From contig JADFMY010000023.1 of assembly GCA_022563685.1 (NCBI GenBank), positions 1 through 33,830 on the forward strand: a stretch of DNA of 33,830 nucleotides, in the 5' to 3' direction. A program made the position numbers and the translations under genes. Shown here piece after piece: positions 2,535 to 24,534 of the stretch (its first letter is position 1; every line of letters starts with the position of its first letter). The DNA comes from Pseudomonadota bacterium. GTDB taxonomy: Bacteria > Pseudomonadota > Gammaproteobacteria > GCA-001735895. The notes under the pieces are model-generated. The model ran no database searches, was not told where the DNA came from, and worked only from the letters and a program-made list of their open reading frames with translations.

Positions 2535-3722
2535 TTAGTTATGTGCTTCAAGCCAGTTCGGGATGGGCTCGTATTCCTGAGAAATCTTTATTTTCTCAAC
2601 CGTCACCGGTGTGGTGCTGCTCAGGCTTTCGAGAAAAGCCACGAGATCTTTCTGCTCTTGTGCGCCGAGTCCGAGCGGCTGCAATACGTCGGCGAGCGGA
2701 TCGTCCTTGCCGCCGCCCTGGTTGTAGAACTCCACCACGTCCTCCAGCGAGGTCAGCAGGCCATTGTGCATGTAGGGCGCGGTATATTTGAGTTCACGCA
2801 GGGTCGGCGTAATGAATTTGCCTACATCGGCGTAACGTTTGCTGACAAAGAAGAATCCAACGTCACGCCGCCAGTTTTCCGCATTGGGCACACCGTGATT
2901 AGTCAAGACTGCGCGGTAGGCGATATGACGCAGCGGGTCCTTGAAGACGTCCATATTCTCCGGCATTCCCGTATTGTGGGGCTCACCGTCAGAAAAGTAG
3001 GGGCCGTTATGGCAATTGATGCAACCTGCTTTACCTTCAAACAGGGTTTGCCCTTTTTTTGCTGCGTCGGATAGACTTCCGTTATCGAACGGCGCATCTT
3101 TGGAGACCAGGGTTTCAACAAAAGCCACCAGTGCCTTGCGTCCCTTGCCGGAACTGCATTCACCGTTGAAGTTTTCCTGACACATCTCGACGTAGACTGC
3201 ATCTTGCTTCATGCGCTCATGCATGAGCCGCATGTCCAGATTCAACATCATGGTCTCGGTGATCTGGTCGCGTATCACATCGTTCATATTGGCGCCAATG
3301 TGGCCATCCCAGCCCCATCCCACCTCGGCAAAGTCAGCCTTGTAGACCGAATTCAGCAGCGTGGGCGCATTGCGAAAGTGGCGCGTACCGGGGTAAGCGT
3401 CGGACAGGGCCATGGGCTTGCCTTCCTTGCCCACCTGCCGGGTAAAACCCTGGGCAGGATCATGACAGGTAGCGCAGCTGATGGCGCCGTCACCCGACAT
3501 GCGGGCGTCAAAGAACAGGCGCTTGCCCATCTCCACCAGAGACGCCCTGGGCGCCTTTCTCGCCGGCAGGGGTCCAATTGCGGCAAGCTGAGTCTCCGCT
3601 GCCTGAACCGTTTGTTGGGCTACACCTGTAATACTGTCCAGATAACCTCCGAAAACCACGGCTATGGCTGTGGATATCAAAATTGGGCGCCATAGGGATT
3701 TTGGCTTTTGTTGAATACTCAT
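2535..3722 (-). CDS. Di-haem cytochrome c peroxidase family protein (IdrP-like, first copy)
   Basis: This is the first of two tandem di-haem peroxidase-family proteins in the operon. The 395 residues start with a signal anchor or signal peptide (hydrophobic residues about 13-30). Haem sites are C83-A-T-C86-H87 and C234-I-N-C237-H238, and the family block YMHNGLLTSLEDVVEFYNQGGG follows near the C-terminus. The ATG at 3722 follows GGAGG; a TTG three bases earlier is equally readable. Two adjacent di-haem peroxidases beside AioA/AioB-like subunits is the arrangement described for iodate reductase. In arsenite oxidase operons a small mono-haem cytochrome is usual instead. Which copy corresponds to IdrP1 and which to IdrP2 cannot be decided by eye. 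Confidence 0.85.
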   Translation of the reverse strand: MSIQQKPKSLWRPILISTAIAVVFGGYLDSITGVAQQTVQAAETQLAAIGPLPARKAPRASLVEMGKRLFFDARMSGDGAISCATCHDPAQGFTRQVGKEGKPMALSDAYPGTRHFRNAPTLLNSVYKADFAEVGWGWDGHIGANMNDVIRDQITETMMLNLDMRLMHERMKQDAVYVEMCQENFNGECSSGKGRKALVAFVETLVSKDAPFDNGSLSDAAKKGQTLFEGKAGCINCHNGPYFSDGEPHNTGMPENMDVFKDPLRHIAYRAVLTNHGVPNAENWRRDVGFFFVSKRYADVGKFITPTLRELKYTAPYMHNGLLTSLEDVVEFYNQGGGKDDPLADVLQPLGLGAQEQKDLVAFLESLSSTTPVTVEKIKISQEYEPIPNWLEAHN

Positions 3723-3744
3723 CAACTGTCCTCCAGGTTGAGTA

Positions 3745-8346: not shown

Positions 8347-9339
8347 ATGCCTGACCATTTCCAGGGCTACCAGATCAACAAAACCGATGCAGGACAGACT
8401 TGCGAGCTGAAGCAACTCAGCGACGACGACCTGATGGAAGGCGACGTAACGATTCAGGTCGAATACTCAAGCTTGAATTACAAGGATGGCCTGGCCCTGA
8501 CCGGAAAGTCCTCGGTAGTACGAAAATTTCCCCTCACGCCTGGCGTCGATTTTTCCGGAACTGTCATCAGCTCAGAGCATAGCGGCTTCAAAGCAGGGGA
8601 TCGGGTCGTCCTGAATGGTTTCGGCGTGGGTGAAGTGCATTCCGGCGGTTATGCGCAAAAAGCGCGTGTTAAGGGTGACTGGCTGGTACATCTACCCGAC
8701 GGGATCGATTCGCGCCAGGCGATGGCGATAGGTACCGCAGGTTTTACGGCGATGCTATGCGTGACAGTGCTCGAAAACCATGGCATCCAGCCTGAAAGTG
8801 GTGACCTGCTGGTCACAGGTGCATCTGGTGGTGTGGGCAGCGTGGCGGTTGCGATATTGAATAAACTAGGGTTTCGCGTCGTGGCTATTACGGGGCGCAT
8901 GGAAGAAAAGGATTATTTGCAAGGCCTCGGGGCTGCCGATGTGCTCGATCGTAAGGATTTTTCCGCAAAGGCCAGACCCCTGTACAAGGAGCTGTGGGCA
9001 GGCGCGGTGGATGTAGCCGGCGGCAATACACTCGCGAACGTCTTGAGCCAGATTAAATATGGCGGTGCAGTTGCAGCCTGTGGGCTGGCCGAATCGATAG
9101 ATTTACCTGCCTCTGTGGCGCCATTTATTCTACGCGGGGTGACTTTATATGGTATCGATTCAGTGATGGCACCGTTGGAGAAACGCGATGCAGCCTGGAA
9201 ACGGCTGGCACAGGACCTCGACATGAACCTGCTGGAAGATCTTTCGTTTGATCTGGATTTTAACGACTTACCCAGGGCTGCGGAGGACATACTCGCAGGC
9301 AAGATCCGGGGCCGTGCGATAGTCAAGATACCCGCCTGA
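8347..9339 (+). CDS. acuI: Acrylyl-CoA reductase, AcuI/YhdH family
   Basis: This is a zinc-independent MDR-superfamily oxidoreductase that reduces acrylyl-CoA to propionyl-CoA with NADPH. It detoxifies acrylate and serves as a step in DMSP or 3-hydroxypropionate breakdown. The 330-residue length is exact for the family. The N-terminal catalytic domain carries SLNYKDGLALTG and PGVDFSGTV. The Rossmann fold begins with VTGASGGVGSVAVA at about residues 156-169, and the C-terminus (AAEDILAGKIRGRAIVKI) is typical. AGGGGACC precedes the ATG. AcuI homologues are widespread, so the gene alone does not prove DMSP use. The DmdA-like gene 10 kb away makes it more likely. Confidence 0.88.
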   Translation: MPDHFQGYQINKTDAGQTCELKQLSDDDLMEGDVTIQVEYSSLNYKDGLALTGKSSVVRKFPLTPGVDFSGTVISSEHSGFKAGDRVVLNGFGVGEVHSGGYAQKARVKGDWLVHLPDGIDSRQAMAIGTAGFTAMLCVTVLENHGIQPESGDLLVTGASGGVGSVAVAILNKLGFRVVAITGRMEEKDYLQGLGAADVLDRKDFSAKARPLYKELWAGAVDVAGGNTLANVLSQIKYGGAVAACGLAESIDLPASVAPFILRGVTLYGIDSVMAPLEKRDAAWKRLAQDLDMNLLEDLSFDLDFNDLPRAAEDILAGKIRGRAIVKIPA

Positions 9340-19590: not shown

Positions 19591-20697
19591 TCAGTTCCAG
19601 AATTCATCCCGTACGCGGGCCTCGCGCGTACCTTCAGGTGTATCTACTACCAGGCGGGTACCGGGTTCCCAATCGTCTTTATTCACCATGCCAATCGCGA
19701 CATTGGTGTGGAAATCAGGAGACCATACCGCCGATGAAATATACCCGGCGGACTCGCCGGATTGATTCTTCAATGGCCAGAGCTGTGGCGCCACCGAAAG
19801 GGGGTCGCCGTCGATCTCAACAGGCCGGATTTGCCGGGAGGGGTTTTGTTTGCCCAGCAGGGCGCCGTGACCAAGACAGCCGGTGGCCGTGTCCATATTG
19901 CAGTATTTACCCAGGCCAACCTCAAACGGTGTGTGGTCCAGGGTGATGTCATTGCCATAGGACAGCAGCCCACTCTCGATCCGTTCGATCAGATTCGGGC
20001 AGCCCGCGTGCACGTCCAGATCCGCACCCGCTTCGAACAGCGTGTCCCACAGAGCTTCTCCATTTTCAAATCCAACCAGGTAAATTTCGAATCCACCCTG
20101 TAAGGACCAGCCAGAGCGGGCGATGATCATCTCCTGGCCCTGAAAAATAATGGGTTTGTGGCGGAAGAACCGGGTATCCACGATTTCCTGGCCGAAAACT
20201 CGGCGGATCAGTTCGTCAGCTTTGGGCCCCTGAACGGCCAGCGGAGACACATCGGGCTCGAACACTTTCACCTCCAGGCCGAAGCCGTTCGCCAGGCCCT
20301 TGAAGTAATAGAGCATATCGGAATCGGCCAGCGATACCCAGTAGCGATCCTCGGCGAGCTTGTTGAGCACCGGGTCGTTCAGCATCGCACCTTGCGCATC
20401 GACCATGGGGATGTAATAACATTGGTCGTCTTCCATTTTCGCCAGGTCACGCGGCGTGGTCATCTGTACCAGCCGTTGTGCATCGGGACCGATGATTTCC
20501 ACCTGCTTTTGGCAGGTAACATCCCATACCTGCACGGCGGATTTCAGGTGGGCGTAATCTGCTTCTATCGAGTGATAAGCCGTTGCCAGTATCGTGTGGT
20601 TGTAAATGTTATAGGATTTCGCTCCTGCCGCCTCGACCCGGCGGGAGAATGGCGTGCGGCGCAGACGGCTTGAGAAGGAAATCAGGGGCTGGGACAT
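19591..20697 (-). CDS. dmdA: Dimethylsulfoniopropionate demethylase (DmdA-like)
   Basis: DmdA transfers a methyl group from DMSP to tetrahydrofolate, giving methylmercaptopropionate, and belongs to the GcvT aminomethyltransferase fold. The 368-residue length matches DmdA. Several stretches are close to my recollection of SAR11-type DmdA: the N-terminal TPFSRRVEAAG, VQVWDVTCQKQVEI, INDPVLNKLAEDRYWVSLADSD with MLND, ARSGWSLQGGFEIYL, and GCPNLIERIESGLLSYGND. Other GcvT-like proteins share the fold, so the substrate needs a tree. The CitE-like gene follows after 68 bp. The ATG at 20697 is preceded by CGGGGCTCC-like sequence rather than a strong ribosome binding site. Confidence 0.78.
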   Translation of the reverse strand: MSQPLISFSSRLRRTPFSRRVEAAGAKSYNIYNHTILATAYHSIEADYAHLKSAVQVWDVTCQKQVEIIGPDAQRLVQMTTPRDLAKMEDDQCYYIPMVDAQGAMLNDPVLNKLAEDRYWVSLADSDMLYYFKGLANGFGLEVKVFEPDVSPLAVQGPKADELIRRVFGQEIVDTRFFRHKPIIFQGQEMIIARSGWSLQGGFEIYLVGFENGEALWDTLFEAGADLDVHAGCPNLIERIESGLLSYGNDITLDHTPFEVGLGKYCNMDTATGCLGHGALLGKQNPSRQIRPVEIDGDPLSVAPQLWPLKNQSGESAGYISSAVWSPDFHTNVAIGMVNKDDWEPGTRLVVDTPEGTREARVRDEFWN

Positions 20698-21036: not shown

Positions 21037-21348
21037 TTAATTTAATATCTCGGCTATTTCCCTGGTCGCCTGGTACAGTCTTATTAACTTTCCTTCGACA
21101 CGAAGCGTCAGTAAACCATGTTTATCGACTGGCACCACGATATCGCCATGACTGTAAACATGGGCATCGAGTATGCTTCCCCTGATTAATTTCATTTGCC
21201 ATCCTGGCGGGAGTGGTTTACCTCTTTCCAGGTTTTTTTGCAATCCGTAGGGAAATATTTTGGACTTGTTTTTTTCTTTTCCTGCAAACACGGGACTGGC
21301 AATTAAGCCAGTGACTATTAACGAAATAAGCAGATTATTTATATTCAT
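21037..21348 (-). CDS. Small secreted RcnB/CigR-like protein
   Basis: This is a 103-residue exported protein with a clear signal peptide (residues 1-22, ending SPVFA). The mature part contains GLQKNLERGKPLPPGWQMKLIRG, a pattern recalling the LPPGWxxKL motif of RcnB/CigR-family periplasmic proteins. This is followed by a beta-rich stretch (DIVVPVDKHGLLTLRVEGKLIRLY). The function is unknown; relatives are linked to metal or virulence regulation in some species. It stands alone on the minus strand, divergent from the TlpA operon that starts 165 bp away. Confidence 0.65.
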   Translation of the reverse strand: MNINNLLISLIVTGLIASPVFAGKEKNKSKIFPYGLQKNLERGKPLPPGWQMKLIRGSILDAHVYSHGDIVVPVDKHGLLTLRVEGKLIRLYQATREIAEILN

Positions 21349-21513: not shown

Positions 21514-22005
21514 ATGAAATTGGTGCGGTATATCTTTATTGTTTTGCTAGTCGGGTTGAGCGGGATTTCAGTTGCTGAAATTACCGATGCGCCCAACTTT
21601 AGCTTACCTACCCAGGATGGTGAAATTAACCTCCAAGATCTTCGTGGTAAGGTGGTATATCTCGATTTTTGGGCCTCATGGTGCAAACCCTGTATTAAAT
21701 CATTTCCCTGGATGTATTATTTAAAAGCGACTTACCAGGATCAGGGTTTCGAAATAATCGCGGTTAATCTTGATACCGAAAAAAGTTTGGCCGAGGACTT
21801 CCTGAATAGAGTTGATATCAATTTTATTATTGCGTTCGATCCGGTGGGAAAAACGGCAGAAGCCTATCAGTTGCGCGGAATGCCAAGCACCTATTTTATT
21901 GGACGTGATGGCCGAATCTATGCATCACATATCGGTTTTCGAGATAAGGATAAGCCGAAGCTGGAACAGGCCGTTAAACTTTTGCTAGGGAAGCCTCAGC
22001 AATGA
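21514..22005 (+). CDS. TlpA-like periplasmic thioredoxin
   Basis: This is a periplasmic thiol-disulfide oxidoreductase of the TlpA/ResA family, 163 residues. It has a signal peptide (residues 1-21, ending SVAE), an active site WASWC57-K-P-C60, and the cis-proline loop GMPSTYFIG. TlpA-like proteins keep cysteines reduced on exported apoproteins. Here the obvious client is the next gene product, a lipoprotein ending in Cys-Gly-Cys-Asn. AGGAG lies upstream of the ATG (21504-21508). It is the first of four same-strand genes with DUF4266, DUF3570 and ApbE products. Confidence 0.9.
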   Translation: MKLVRYIFIVLLVGLSGISVAEITDAPNFSLPTQDGEINLQDLRGKVVYLDFWASWCKPCIKSFPWMYYLKATYQDQGFEIIAVNLDTEKSLAEDFLNRVDINFIIAFDPVGKTAEAYQLRGMPSTYFIGRDGRIYASHIGFRDKDKPKLEQAVKLLLGKPQQ

Positions 22006-22040
22006 TCAGTGAATCCTTTAGTCCCAGGAGAAATAAACCA

Positions 22041-22253
22041 ATGCGGGTGATGTTTATCATGCTTATGGCGGTCACCATTTCCGCATGTTCTTCCATGGGA
22101 ATTCAGCCCTGGGAGCGCGATTTGCTGGCGAAAGATTCCATGCAACTGGTTCCAGATTACCTGGACAACTTTATAGATGAGCATATTTATTTTAGTAAAG
22201 AAGCCAGCAGCGGTGGCCAGGGTGTTGGCGGAGGCGGTTGCGGTTGCAATTAA
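22041..22253 (+). CDS. DUF4266 small lipoprotein with Cys-Gly-Cys tail
   Basis: This is a 70-residue lipoprotein precursor. The lipobox is TISAC (residues 12-16), so the mature protein begins at C16. The conserved IQPWERDLLAKDSMQL block follows, and the C-terminus is glycine-rich, ending GGGGCGCN. I chose the ATG at 22041 because AGGAG is about ten bases upstream and the signal sequence begins there; an in-frame ATG at 22002 would add 13 non-conserved residues. The length, lipobox and tail match what I know as DUF4266, a family with no established function. It overlaps the start of the DUF3570 gene, implying translational coupling. Confidence 0.8.
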   Translation: MRVMFIMLMAVTISACSSMGIQPWERDLLAKDSMQLVPDYLDNFIDEHIYFSKEASSGGQGVGGGGCGCN

Positions 22254-23557
22254 AGAATATAAAAACCCGCATGAGCCTTGCGACCTGCACCCTGTTGCAA
22301 ATTGCAGGACCCGTTGCTCAGGCTGTCGAATCCGAGTGGGAAGTCGATAGCGCAATCCTGATTTATAGTGAAAGCGGTAGCCGCGTAACTGCAATAGAAC
22401 CAGCAGTATACGCCGGGCGCGATCTAGGTGACGATCAGCGAATTAGCCTGAGACTGGTGGTCGATTCCCTCACGGGTGCGACACCCAATGGCGCACATGC
22501 ATCGTCGGTGGCTCAAACATTTACCACACCGTCGGGGCAAAGCTCCTATACAACAGCCGCTGGAGATACACCCCTGGACGATTCTTTTTTCGATACCCGC
22601 GTTGCCTTTGGTGCAGACTGGGAAGTGGGTATCGATCGCATGTCACGGATCACCTGGGGAGGCAATTTGTCGAAGGAGTTCGATTACCTGTCGCTCGGTA
22701 TCAGTGCCACTTATGCGCGGGACTATGATGACCGCAATACAACTTTGACCGTCGGCGTGGCGTTTAATAACGATAGAATTTCACCTGAAGGTGATATTCC
22801 GTCTACTCTCAAGCCTATGGTCACACCAGGGGTTGCTCTTAACCGGGAAGGCGGCGCCGATCGCAAAATAATTACCGATTTCCTGATTGGCGTCACCCAG
22901 GTAATTAGCCGACAAACCATCGTTCAATTGAATTATGGTTTCGGCCAGACAGATGGATACCAGAATGACCCATACAAAATAGTCAGTGTAATCGATCCGG
23001 TGACTGGATTGCCGGCGACTGCTACGGGTTCTTCCTTCTTCGACACTGCCCTAACTGGTAATTTGCCATACCTGTACGAAAGCCGCCCCGAAACCCGTGA
23101 GCGGCATGTGCTTTTTTTTAAGGCAGTACATCACTTTGAAAAAGACGTTATTCACGTTTCGTACCGCTATTACCAGGACGACTGGGAGGTGACTTCACAT
23201 ACCTTTGATTTAAGGTATCGTTATGAAATGGACAGGGGTTATTTGCAACCACATATTCGCTACTATCAACAGGATGCAGCGGAATTCTATACCCATAACC
23301 TCGAGCTCGGCACAGACGTAGAAGCGACTAGCGGAGTCGTATCGACAGCCTTTGCCAGTAGCGACTATCGACTGGCTGAGTCTGAAACGCTCACGTTTGG
23401 TTTAAAGTACGGATTGCCACTTGAAAAAAACAGCGAAATTTCGATGCGGGTTGAATCGATAACGCAGACGGTTGACGATGGTTTAGTGCCGATCGGCGAA
23501 GAGACCCCCGACCTGGATGCGATCCTATTACAGGTTAATTATTCGCTGCTCTGGTAG
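22238..23557 (+). CDS. DUF3570 outer-membrane beta-barrel protein with a flavinylation-like motif
   Basis: This is a protein of about 439 residues. It has a signal peptide (residues about 1-29, ending VAQA), alternating amphipathic beta-strands throughout, and a C-terminal aromatic residue (VNYSLLW), all typical of an outer-membrane barrel. Near the N-terminus is D76-S-L-T79-G-A-T82 followed by PNGA, which fits the D-x2-[ST]-G-A-[ST] sequence recognised by ApbE flavin transferases. ApbE is encoded two genes after DUF4266. The TTG at 22238 gives the best positively charged n-region; an ATG at 22271 is an alternative. It overlaps the DUF4266 gene by 16 bases. The function is not established for the family. 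Confidence 0.78.
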   Translation: MRLQLKNIKTRMSLATCTLLQIAGPVAQAVESEWEVDSAILIYSESGSRVTAIEPAVYAGRDLGDDQRISLRLVVDSLTGATPNGAHASSVAQTFTTPSGQSSYTTAAGDTPLDDSFFDTRVAFGADWEVGIDRMSRITWGGNLSKEFDYLSLGISATYARDYDDRNTTLTVGVAFNNDRISPEGDIPSTLKPMVTPGVALNREGGADRKIITDFLIGVTQVISRQTIVQLNYGFGQTDGYQNDPYKIVSVIDPVTGLPATATGSSFFDTALTGNLPYLYESRPETRERHVLFFKAVHHFEKDVIHVSYRYYQDDWEVTSHTFDLRYRYEMDRGYLQPHIRYYQQDAAEFYTHNLELGTDVEATSGVVSTAFASSDYRLAESETLTFGLKYGLPLEKNSEISMRVESITQTVDDGLVPIGEETPDLDAILLQVNYSLLW

Positions 23558-23652
23558 CGGGCATCGCAATAATGCACTAATTTTCGAGTTGTACTGGTGA
23601 CCAACCAGCTTTCACAATAGCCAATTACAGTGTTTTCAACGATGCTTTTCAT

Positions 23653-24534
23653 ATGACCGATTTTCAGTTAAGCAGGGAGCCGGGTAACTGGCGGGGCAGA
23701 TTTACCGCGATGGCAAGCCCCTGTGAAGTATTGATGGAAGTCGACGATCACTCGATGGCCGAAAAGATCCTGGCCGCAGTGTCGAACGAGGCGCTGCGCA
23801 TCGAACATAAATTCAGCCGTTATCGTAATGACAATATCGTATCCAGAATTAATAATGCTGCTGGAAAGCCAGTCACGGTCGACAATGAAACTGCGAGACT
23901 GATCGATTTTGCCGACGAGCTTTACCGGTTGAGCGAAGGATTGTTTGATATTACCTCGGGTGTATTCAGGAAAGTATGGTGTTTTGATGGCAGCGATCGT
24001 ATCCCGAAGCGAACGGCTGTCTCCAGCTTACTTGCTCGTGTCGGTTGGCAAAAGGTTAAATGGAATGCCAATGAACTTTTGCTGAAGCCAGGCATGGAAA
24101 TTGACCTGGGTGGCCTAGGTAAAGAGTATGCAGTCGATCGATGCGTACAGTTAGTTCGGGAGCTGACAGATGCCAGTGTACTGGTTAACTTTGGGGGAGA
24201 CCTGGCTACCACCTGCGAAAGACGCGACCAGGGTTTTTGGTCAGTCGGGCGCCTGATTACAGGTAAAGAGCAGGCTGTTAGCCTGTTCCAGTTATACCGC
24301 GGCGCCATAGCCACCAGTGGCGACGCTAACCGCTACCTGTTAAAAAACGGTGTCCGCTACAGCCACGTAATTAACCCCAAAAATGGATGGCCAGTACCCG
24401 GCGCACCACACACAGTCAGTGTCGCGTCGCCTACCTGTACCGAAGCAGGAGGCTTATCGACCCTGGCGATGTTGCAAGGTAGCCAGGCGGAAGCATTTTT
24501 AAAACTTCAGGCGGTCGAATACTGGCTCGATTAG
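23653..24534 (+). CDS. apbE: ApbE-family FAD:protein FMN transferase
   Basis: ApbE attaches FMN from FAD to a Thr/Ser of target proteins. The 293 residues show the family blocks: FTAMASPCEVLMEV (18-30), DLGGLGKEYAVD (151-162), VNFGGDL (178-183), GAIATSGDANRY (217-228) and SHVINPKNGWPV (237-248). Two points are unusual. No signal peptide or lipobox is seen, although most proteobacterial ApbE proteins act in the periplasm. The usual metal-binding DPxTG is replaced by N241-P-K-N244-G. It follows the DUF3570 gene by 95 bp and converges on the proV-like gene, overlapping its stop by four bases. Confidence 0.88.
   Translation: MTDFQLSREPGNWRGRFTAMASPCEVLMEVDDHSMAEKILAAVSNEALRIEHKFSRYRNDNIVSRINNAAGKPVTVDNETARLIDFADELYRLSEGLFDITSGVFRKVWCFDGSDRIPKRTAVSSLLARVGWQKVKWNANELLLKPGMEIDLGGLGKEYAVDRCVQLVRELTDASVLVNFGGDLATTCERRDQGFWSVGRLITGKEQAVSLFQLYRGAIATSGDANRYLLKNGVRYSHVINPKNGWPVPGAPHTVSVASPTCTEAGGLSTLAMLQGSQAEAFLKLQAVEYWLD

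Follow-up and report, generated by a model that had tools for sequence, protein, structure and literature searches.

How an outer-membrane barrel could come to carry a covalently bound flavin, and what it would do there, is the question raised by four genes in a 33,830-nucleotide contig of a Pseudomonadota bacterium (JADFMY010000023.1, assembly GCA_022563685.1), the whole of which is called the window here and supplies the coordinates used below; loci and genomes elsewhere carry L and G numbers. The genes form a tight array on the forward strand at 21514-24534 and encode a TlpA-like thioredoxin, a DUF4266 lipoprotein, a DUF3570 protein and the flavin transferase ApbE (Table 1), the DUF4266 gene overlapping the barrel gene. 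These identities, proposed by a first-pass annotation of the sequence, agree with the positions of the open reading frames (ORFs) and with a Pfam scan (AhpC-TSA/Redoxin 1.3e-22, DUF4266 6.3e-21, DUF3570 3.3e-112, ApbE 1.6e-61), in which the DUF3570, DUF4266 and ApbE domain scores are all far above the Pfam cut-offs. The answer favoured here, with a probability of about one half, is that the operon yields an outer-membrane protein with covalently bound flavin, loaded with flavin mononucleotide (FMN) before export and taking electrons outward from DsbD through TlpA and DUF4266 to the flavin. The best-supported new step is where the flavin goes on, with an apparently cytosolic ApbE serving an outer-membrane barrel.

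The operon belongs to a published type of gene cluster, assigned to the DsbD-type flavinylated systems. The original description (Meheust et al. 2021; PMC8238504) reports that DUF3570 and DUF4266 genes cluster with those for ApbE and a thioredoxin-like protein, with and without DsbD (316 clusters without), that the C-terminal CXC of DUF4266 is conserved, and that ApbE-associated DUF3570 proteins have two conserved [ST]GA[ST] motifs. In E. coli, a C. luteolum DUF3570 received flavin from its cognate ApbE, and flavinylation was lost on changing both sites; most of the coexpressed DUF3570 was found in the pellet and had to be purified under denaturing conditions, as would suit a substrate that is unfolded. 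The same paper terms the physiological role of flavinylated DUF3570 uncertain. The window shares with these clusters the families, the [ST]GA[ST] motif at the first site and the CXC end of DUF4266. It differs in having one motif where two were named as conserved, though not as a condition of membership; in having no DsbD, an optional member, beside the operon; and in its thioredoxin, whose best families are AhpC-TSA and Redoxin rather than PF13899. The first-pass annotation had combined a flavinylated barrel, a cysteine-tailed lipoprotein and a thioredoxin-like partner into a device for which no function was established in either DUF; the barrel fold and the uncertain physiological role stand, but the combination, like the flavinylation of a DUF3570, was already in print (PMC8238504). 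The main text of that paper, as far as it was available, does not use the word 'barrel', mentions 'outer membrane' once, for siderophore transporters, and contained no mention of a barrel fold or of a DUF3570-linked ApbE without a signal peptide. A later study (PMC11334425, 2024) names the outer membrane among the sites of flavinylation substrates, and a text search did not find DUF3570 in it. Within the literature searched, DUF3570 and DUF4266 were named only in PMC8238504, and no report of a flavinylated outer-membrane barrel was recognised from titles and abstracts. New here are the conservation of the site, the 16-strand fold and the side on which the site lies, the linked ApbE without a signal peptide in a clade of its own, and the retention of the CXC end also where motif and adjacent ApbE are absent.

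The flavinylation motif was examined in the best 80 of 555 confirmed places, a set that leans to near relatives. Because the search pattern (YR[YFL][YMF]xDDWx[VI]) comes from another part of the barrel protein, this sample was not selected for the motif. In the window, D-S-L-T-G-A-T lies where it had been read as D76 to T82, counting from the TTG at 22238; a second TTG, at 22244, lies where relatives begin with M-Q-L-K and has a GGAGG 9 bases upstream, for which reason D74 and T80 are the more likely numbers. Asp, Gly and a Ser or Thr acceptor are each present in 81/81 barrels (80 relatives and the window), and the strict form, D..[ST]GA[ST], in 70/81. A wider alignment of 90 rows, with barrels more than 85% alike removed and 15 of 16 listed extra rows added, has Asp in 90/90, Gly in 89/90 and the acceptor in 90/90. 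A lack of conservation had been named in the first-pass annotation as a ground for refutation; the motif is conserved. The strict motif appeared in 118 of 20,000 shuffles of the mature barrel and in 2 of 798 other open frames of at least 200 amino acids (aa) from the 80 related loci. In two loci of another set (L018 and L025) Asn replaces Asp, and neither adjoins an ApbE. As for a second strict motif, 69 of the 81 barrels have one motif in total, 11 none and 1 two; at the second position the window reads T-P-S-G-Q-S, not [ST]GA[ST]. An AlphaFold model of the barrel (predicted local distance difference test, pLDDT, 95.8) has 16 strands, an even count of long strands whose short turns lie on the same side as the two termini, and places the site where strand 3 ends on the outer side. 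On this model, DUF3570 is well supported as an outer-membrane beta-barrel and its flavin site is probably near the outer face. No relatives of DUF3570 or DUF4266 with solved structures were found by sequence at E 0.1.

ApbE lies beside the barrel in most of the relatives sampled, a co-occurrence that the first-pass annotation had proposed to check. Among the 80 loci, DUF4266 was found in 78, a TlpA match in 67 and ApbE in 64; 77 of the loci have enough downstream room, and the 64 with an adjoining ApbE are among these. A table compiled by hand covered 57 relatives not chosen by the pattern; of its 38 DUF3570 matches scoring 150 bits or more, 25 have ApbE directly downstream, 4 lie at a contig edge and 9 show neither. 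Across 299 genomes of the phylum, DUF3570 was present in 20, ApbE (A3 profile, E 1e-60) in 16 and both in 11; with the genome of the window excluded, 298 remain, and 10 are shared between 19 with DUF3570 and 15 with ApbE (hypergeometric p 1.8e-10, uncorrected for kinship). A stricter proposal, that motif and ApbE are gained and lost together, was rejected: in a table of 153 loci it is a mere tendency, with 24 motif barrels lacking an adjacent ApbE and 7 cases of the reverse. That table omitted DUF3570 ORFs shorter than 330 aa, copies, and loci with fewer than 1100 bases downstream and no ApbE, L261 among them.

The ApbE of the window contains the domain and conserved motifs of a predicted flavin transferase and has just 19 residues (beginning M-A-S-P-C-E) ahead of the conserved core, none of them forming a hydrophobic stretch. 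Canonical secreted ApbEs have a signal peptide or lipobox, whereas this one has neither by the hydropathy rule applied throughout. DUF3570 proteins scoring over 250 bits with the profile used here were called class A and those under it class B. In a table that omitted ORFs under 230 aa and near-identical copies, a signal peptide is absent from 69 of the 72 ApbEs beside class A DUF3570 and present in 39 of 51 unlinked ApbEs. When only start codons beyond the barrel gene are allowed, none of 64 linked loci could carry one: the hydrophobic stretch that flagged L124 is mostly inside the DUF3570 gene, and at L133 no start codon precedes it. The class A ApbEs of L235, L241 and L254, re-examined, have no signal peptide either. 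In the phylum of G494 (taken as Krumholzibacteriota) and three further genomes, ApbE is present in 22/22 full-length class A loci, 18 of them new, and in none does it show a signal peptide. Judged by eye, 11 of 12 class B loci with ApbE lack a signal-peptide-like N-terminus. A maximum-likelihood tree of 121 ApbEs (omitting L160, L181, L169 and L186) is split 82 versus 39 by a single branch (100/100, length 1.88). The larger side holds 72 linked class A, 9 unlinked without a signal peptide and 1 linked class B; the smaller holds 37 unlinked with a signal peptide, 1 linked class B and 1 unlinked without. Complete searches of 13 genomes whose barrel adjoins no ApbE found an ApbE of the same clade elsewhere in 11, beside another DUF3570 in two of these; in G491 the only match is cut at the contig start.

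Since the linked ApbEs without signal peptides form a clade apart from the secreted ones, these sequences indicate that the DUF3570-linked ApbE probably acts in the cytosol and that the flavin is attached before export, a cytosolic enzyme being able to meet the barrel only then. The first-pass annotation had made its idea depend on ApbE reaching the site. For the finished barrel this is unlikely, because the site is at the outer end and the cluster ApbE lacks a signal peptide by the hydropathy rule; a flavin attached before export suits the data better. A partial precedent is found in the available text of a recent review (PMC12052999, 2025), according to which most bacterial and archaeal ApbEs are seemingly secreted and cytosolic ones exist, with soluble fumarate reductase as substrate. 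The ApbE of Klebsiella pneumoniae described there lacks a signal peptide, like the window's, and works in the cytosol, as the window's probably does, but its substrate stays cytosolic while DUF3570 has an export signal and an outer-membrane fold.

Several observations weigh against cytosolic loading of a dedicated flavin site. Signal peptides were called by hydropathy and not by SignalP. The ApbE of L191 has a signal-like stretch if started from the TTG at the very start of its frame, not from inner TTGs; L203, the class B exception, couples an ApbE with a signal peptide to a distant DUF3570 whose barrel has no GA motif; and in G483, with a DSLTGSS barrel, the only ApbE found is of the secreted type. 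In addition, cloning of the C. luteolum pair is described as similar to a strategy that used a signal-peptide-truncated apbE, and on this wording of the available text (PMC8238504) its ApbE may have a signal peptide. For the motif, 11 of 81 barrels have GSS, GST or GNS in place of GA[ST], and L242 and L246 have SGPS or TGPS despite an adjacent ApbE. Its Asp and Ala-Ser are retained in loci without the Gly and without an adjacent ApbE, so part of the motif may be structural. The cases of L203 and C. luteolum, the apparent prevalence of secreted ApbEs in the review text (PMC12052999), and a second ApbE with a signal-peptide-like N-terminus on contig 80 of the window's own genome would all suit flavinylation in the periplasm, before insertion by BAM, either by that secreted ApbE or by the cluster ApbE exported along another route. 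This is nevertheless judged unlikely, given that the form without a signal peptide is the one in the operon and beside the barrel in most sampled relatives, and that its clade persists in 11 of the 13 non-adjacent genomes. Far less probable is a purely structural role of the barrel motif, with some other, cytosolic protein unrelated to the barrel as the substrate of the cluster ApbE. ApbEs matching the A3 profile do occur without DUF3570, in 5 of 16 genomes and in 3 of these beside an EF-hand protein with [ST]GAS, but neither the loss of C. luteolum flavinylation on mutating both motifs (PMC8238504, available text) nor the sharing of 10 of the 298 genomes fits such a division. The small EF-hand proteins, which adjoin ApbE in three of those five genomes and bear [ST]GAS at the N-terminus, are themselves candidates, from their sequence, for a new flavinylation substrate (Table 1).

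The second redox element of the operon would be the tail of DUF4266, which translation confirms to end in Cys-Gly-Cys-Asn. The DUF4266 alignment (A4) included 70 of 77 listed sequences. The lipid Cys, W, L, M, H, S-K-E, G-G and the terminal G-G-G-C-G-C-N are invariant in 79/79, and the distance from the lipid Cys to the C-terminus is exactly 55 residues in 72/79; the C-x-C end is retained in 143/143, found with a profile that included the tail and so favoured kept tails. The tail, whose conservation the first-pass annotation had proposed to test, is conserved in these sets. A GGAGG within the tail codons is well placed as the ribosome-binding site of the barrel gene. The tail was accordingly considered as conserved merely for that purpose, and the explanation was rejected, since CGCN persists in 13 loci whose DUF3570 frame starts after DUF4266. 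Fold prediction of DUF4266 alone was uninformative (pLDDT 59), and in the predicted lipid-anchored protein residues 49-55, the tail, have pLDDT below 50 and no structure. With its length fixed, its tail flexible and its end invariant, DUF4266 may be an arm reaching a fixed place.

The tail is also found where the flavin motif is not. Of 27 class B loci, 13 have neither the strict motif nor an adjacent ApbE, and all 13 keep the C-x-C of DUF4266 (11 in the 153-locus table, two seen separately). Ten loci of the G494 phylum (L236, L259-L267) have D-A-I-T-[TSA]-A-S or nearly so at the position of the motif or of its second copy, no ApbE in the available flank (too short to tell at L261), and DUF4266 ending in C-A-C-N or C-A-C-K; L237, from another genome, has S-G-A-S without the Asp and a C-G-C-N tail. 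Because C-x-C stays where motif and adjacent ApbE are absent, thiol tail and barrel may be the core; the pattern suggests either that flavin was added to this core or, the branch being unrooted, that it was lost in the branch without the motif. By extension, the flavin could be an accessory to a TlpA, CXC lipoprotein and barrel core devoted to thiol or metal chemistry, such as copper or disulfide handling. The 13 class B loci and a tail more invariant than the flavin motif speak for this, yet within class A nearly every barrel has the motif and ApbE adjoins in 64 of the 77 loci with room, which leaves it a doubtful alternative. Separately, one class B set of TlpA, DUF4266 and DUF3570 (L202, in G020) lies about 10 kb from a secreted-type ApbE, and like spacing was seen in several relatives.

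In the favoured reading, a cytosolic ApbE would take FMN from flavin adenine dinucleotide (FAD) and attach it to the acceptor Thr while the DUF3570 precursor is still unfolded. Sec would then carry the flavinylated chain across, and BAM would fold the 16-strand barrel, leaving FMN at the outer end of strand 3; passage of an FMN-sized side group through Sec is plausible. Periplasmic DsbD, encoded elsewhere in the genome (contig 158, with a shorter match on contig 138 and none inside the window), would reduce TlpA, which would in turn reduce the C-G-C end of DUF4266 and so may keep the CXC tail reduced, as the first-pass annotation had it. The flexible tail would hand electrons to the barrel flavin, and this would reduce something at or outside the cell surface. 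We infer the order of flavinylation and export, the route from TlpA through DUF4266 to the flavin, its direction and its acceptor; the DsbD, TlpA, DUF4266 and FMN route is a published proposal (PMC8238504, available text) that is made more specific here. The TlpA neighbours have W..WC..C in 60/65; of the other five, L065 lacks the first W but keeps WCVPC, the sequences from L099, L102 and L130 are truncated or masked, and L109 is divergent. No recurring neighbour gene pointing to an electron acceptor was seen in the wider flanks of the relatives.

Altogether, the likely function is to relay electrons at the outer membrane without haem, with DsbD and TlpA supplying them. In porin-cytochrome conduits such as MtrAB, electrons cross the outer membrane inside a barrel. 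The idea would be shared, but the window operon has no haem protein and would use a flavin and a thiol tail instead. The fullest version, in which a flavoprotein finished in the cytosol is threaded unfolded through Sec and becomes a haem-free barrel conduit with the C-G-C-N tail inside it as an electron arm, is put forward tentatively and is itself rather doubtful. In the systems where they are known, both DsbD and TlpA/ResA-like proteins act as reductants, and DsbD lies in the flank of 11/80 loci. Both points argue against inward or local electron use, in which the flavin would oxidise the CXC tail and oxygen or peroxide would receive the electrons, making the system a thiol oxidase or a consumer of peroxide. 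Reversed flow is allowed in principle by the available published text (PMC8238504) and the operon itself sets no direction, but such a device seems decidedly improbable.

Table 1. Positions of the operon features and of other genes mentioned in the text (window coordinates unless a locus is named)
Feature	Position	Strand	Basis or remark
TlpA/ResA-like periplasmic thioredoxin, 163 aa	21514..22005	+	Pfam; N-terminal signal peptide judged by eye; W-A-S-W-C57-K-P-C60
DUF4266 lipoprotein	22002..22253	+	Pfam; ATG 22041 possibly real start; lipidated Cys29 at 22086-22088
DUF4266 tail G-G-G-C-G-C-N	22230..22250	+	invariant 79/79
GGAGG within tail codons	22230..22234	+	well placed for barrel gene
DUF3570 predicted 16-strand outer-membrane barrel	22238..23557	+	Pfam, predicted structure; start TTG 22244 favoured over TTG 22238; mature part taken from 22325
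Predicted flavinylation site D-S-L-T-G-A-T	22463..22483	+	acceptor Thr T82 (from TTG 22238) or T80 (from TTG 22244)
ApbE, predicted flavin transferase without signal peptide, 293 aa	23653..24534	+	Pfam, hydropathy, tree
MauG/MbnH-like di-haem protein	2535..3725	-	under curated cut-offs
Acrylyl-CoA reductase AcuI	8347..9339		above NCBIfam cut-off
GcvT-type protein	19591..20697		
Small, apparently exported protein	21037..21348	-	no Pfam match
EF-hand [ST]GAS protein beside ApbE	L222 2487..2909	-	candidate substrate
EF-hand [ST]GAS protein beside ApbE	L227 981..1448	+	candidate substrate
EF-hand [ST]GAS protein beside ApbE	L231 1073..1465	+	candidate substrate
Class B TlpA-DUF4266-DUF3570 set	L202 911..2877		
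Secreted-type ApbE	L202 13204..14244		

The flanking window genes that were scanned do not look related to the operon: upstream are a GcvT-type protein and an HpcH/HpaI lyase, and downstream are ABC transporter genes with a betaine/choline-type binding protein. The GcvT-type protein and AcuI may have a tie to the breakdown of dimethylsulfoniopropionate (DMSP). Divergent to the operon lies a gene for a small, apparently exported protein, and farther away one for a MauG/MbnH-like di-haem protein. In part of the relatives (L060-L139, labels by eye), genes for a putative histidine kinase (within 1.5 kb in 24 of 31 entries) and a putative OmpR-type regulator (18 of 23) flank the operon in either orientation. 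DUF3570 had no match in phages; its plasmid matches, at 23% identity, are on three large replicons from Vibrio.

When ApbE flavinylates an exported protein, the reaction is usually discussed as extracytosolic, requiring FAD there. If the favoured reading is true, a widespread system would keep the transferase inside while its product goes to the outer membrane; no FAD would be needed outside the cytosol, and DUF3570 would be a rare outer-membrane barrel that leaves the cytosol with its cofactor in place. An operon that is published but has no explanation would thereby become directly testable in the place where its flavin is loaded, in the way the flavin faces and in the partnership with the CXC tail.

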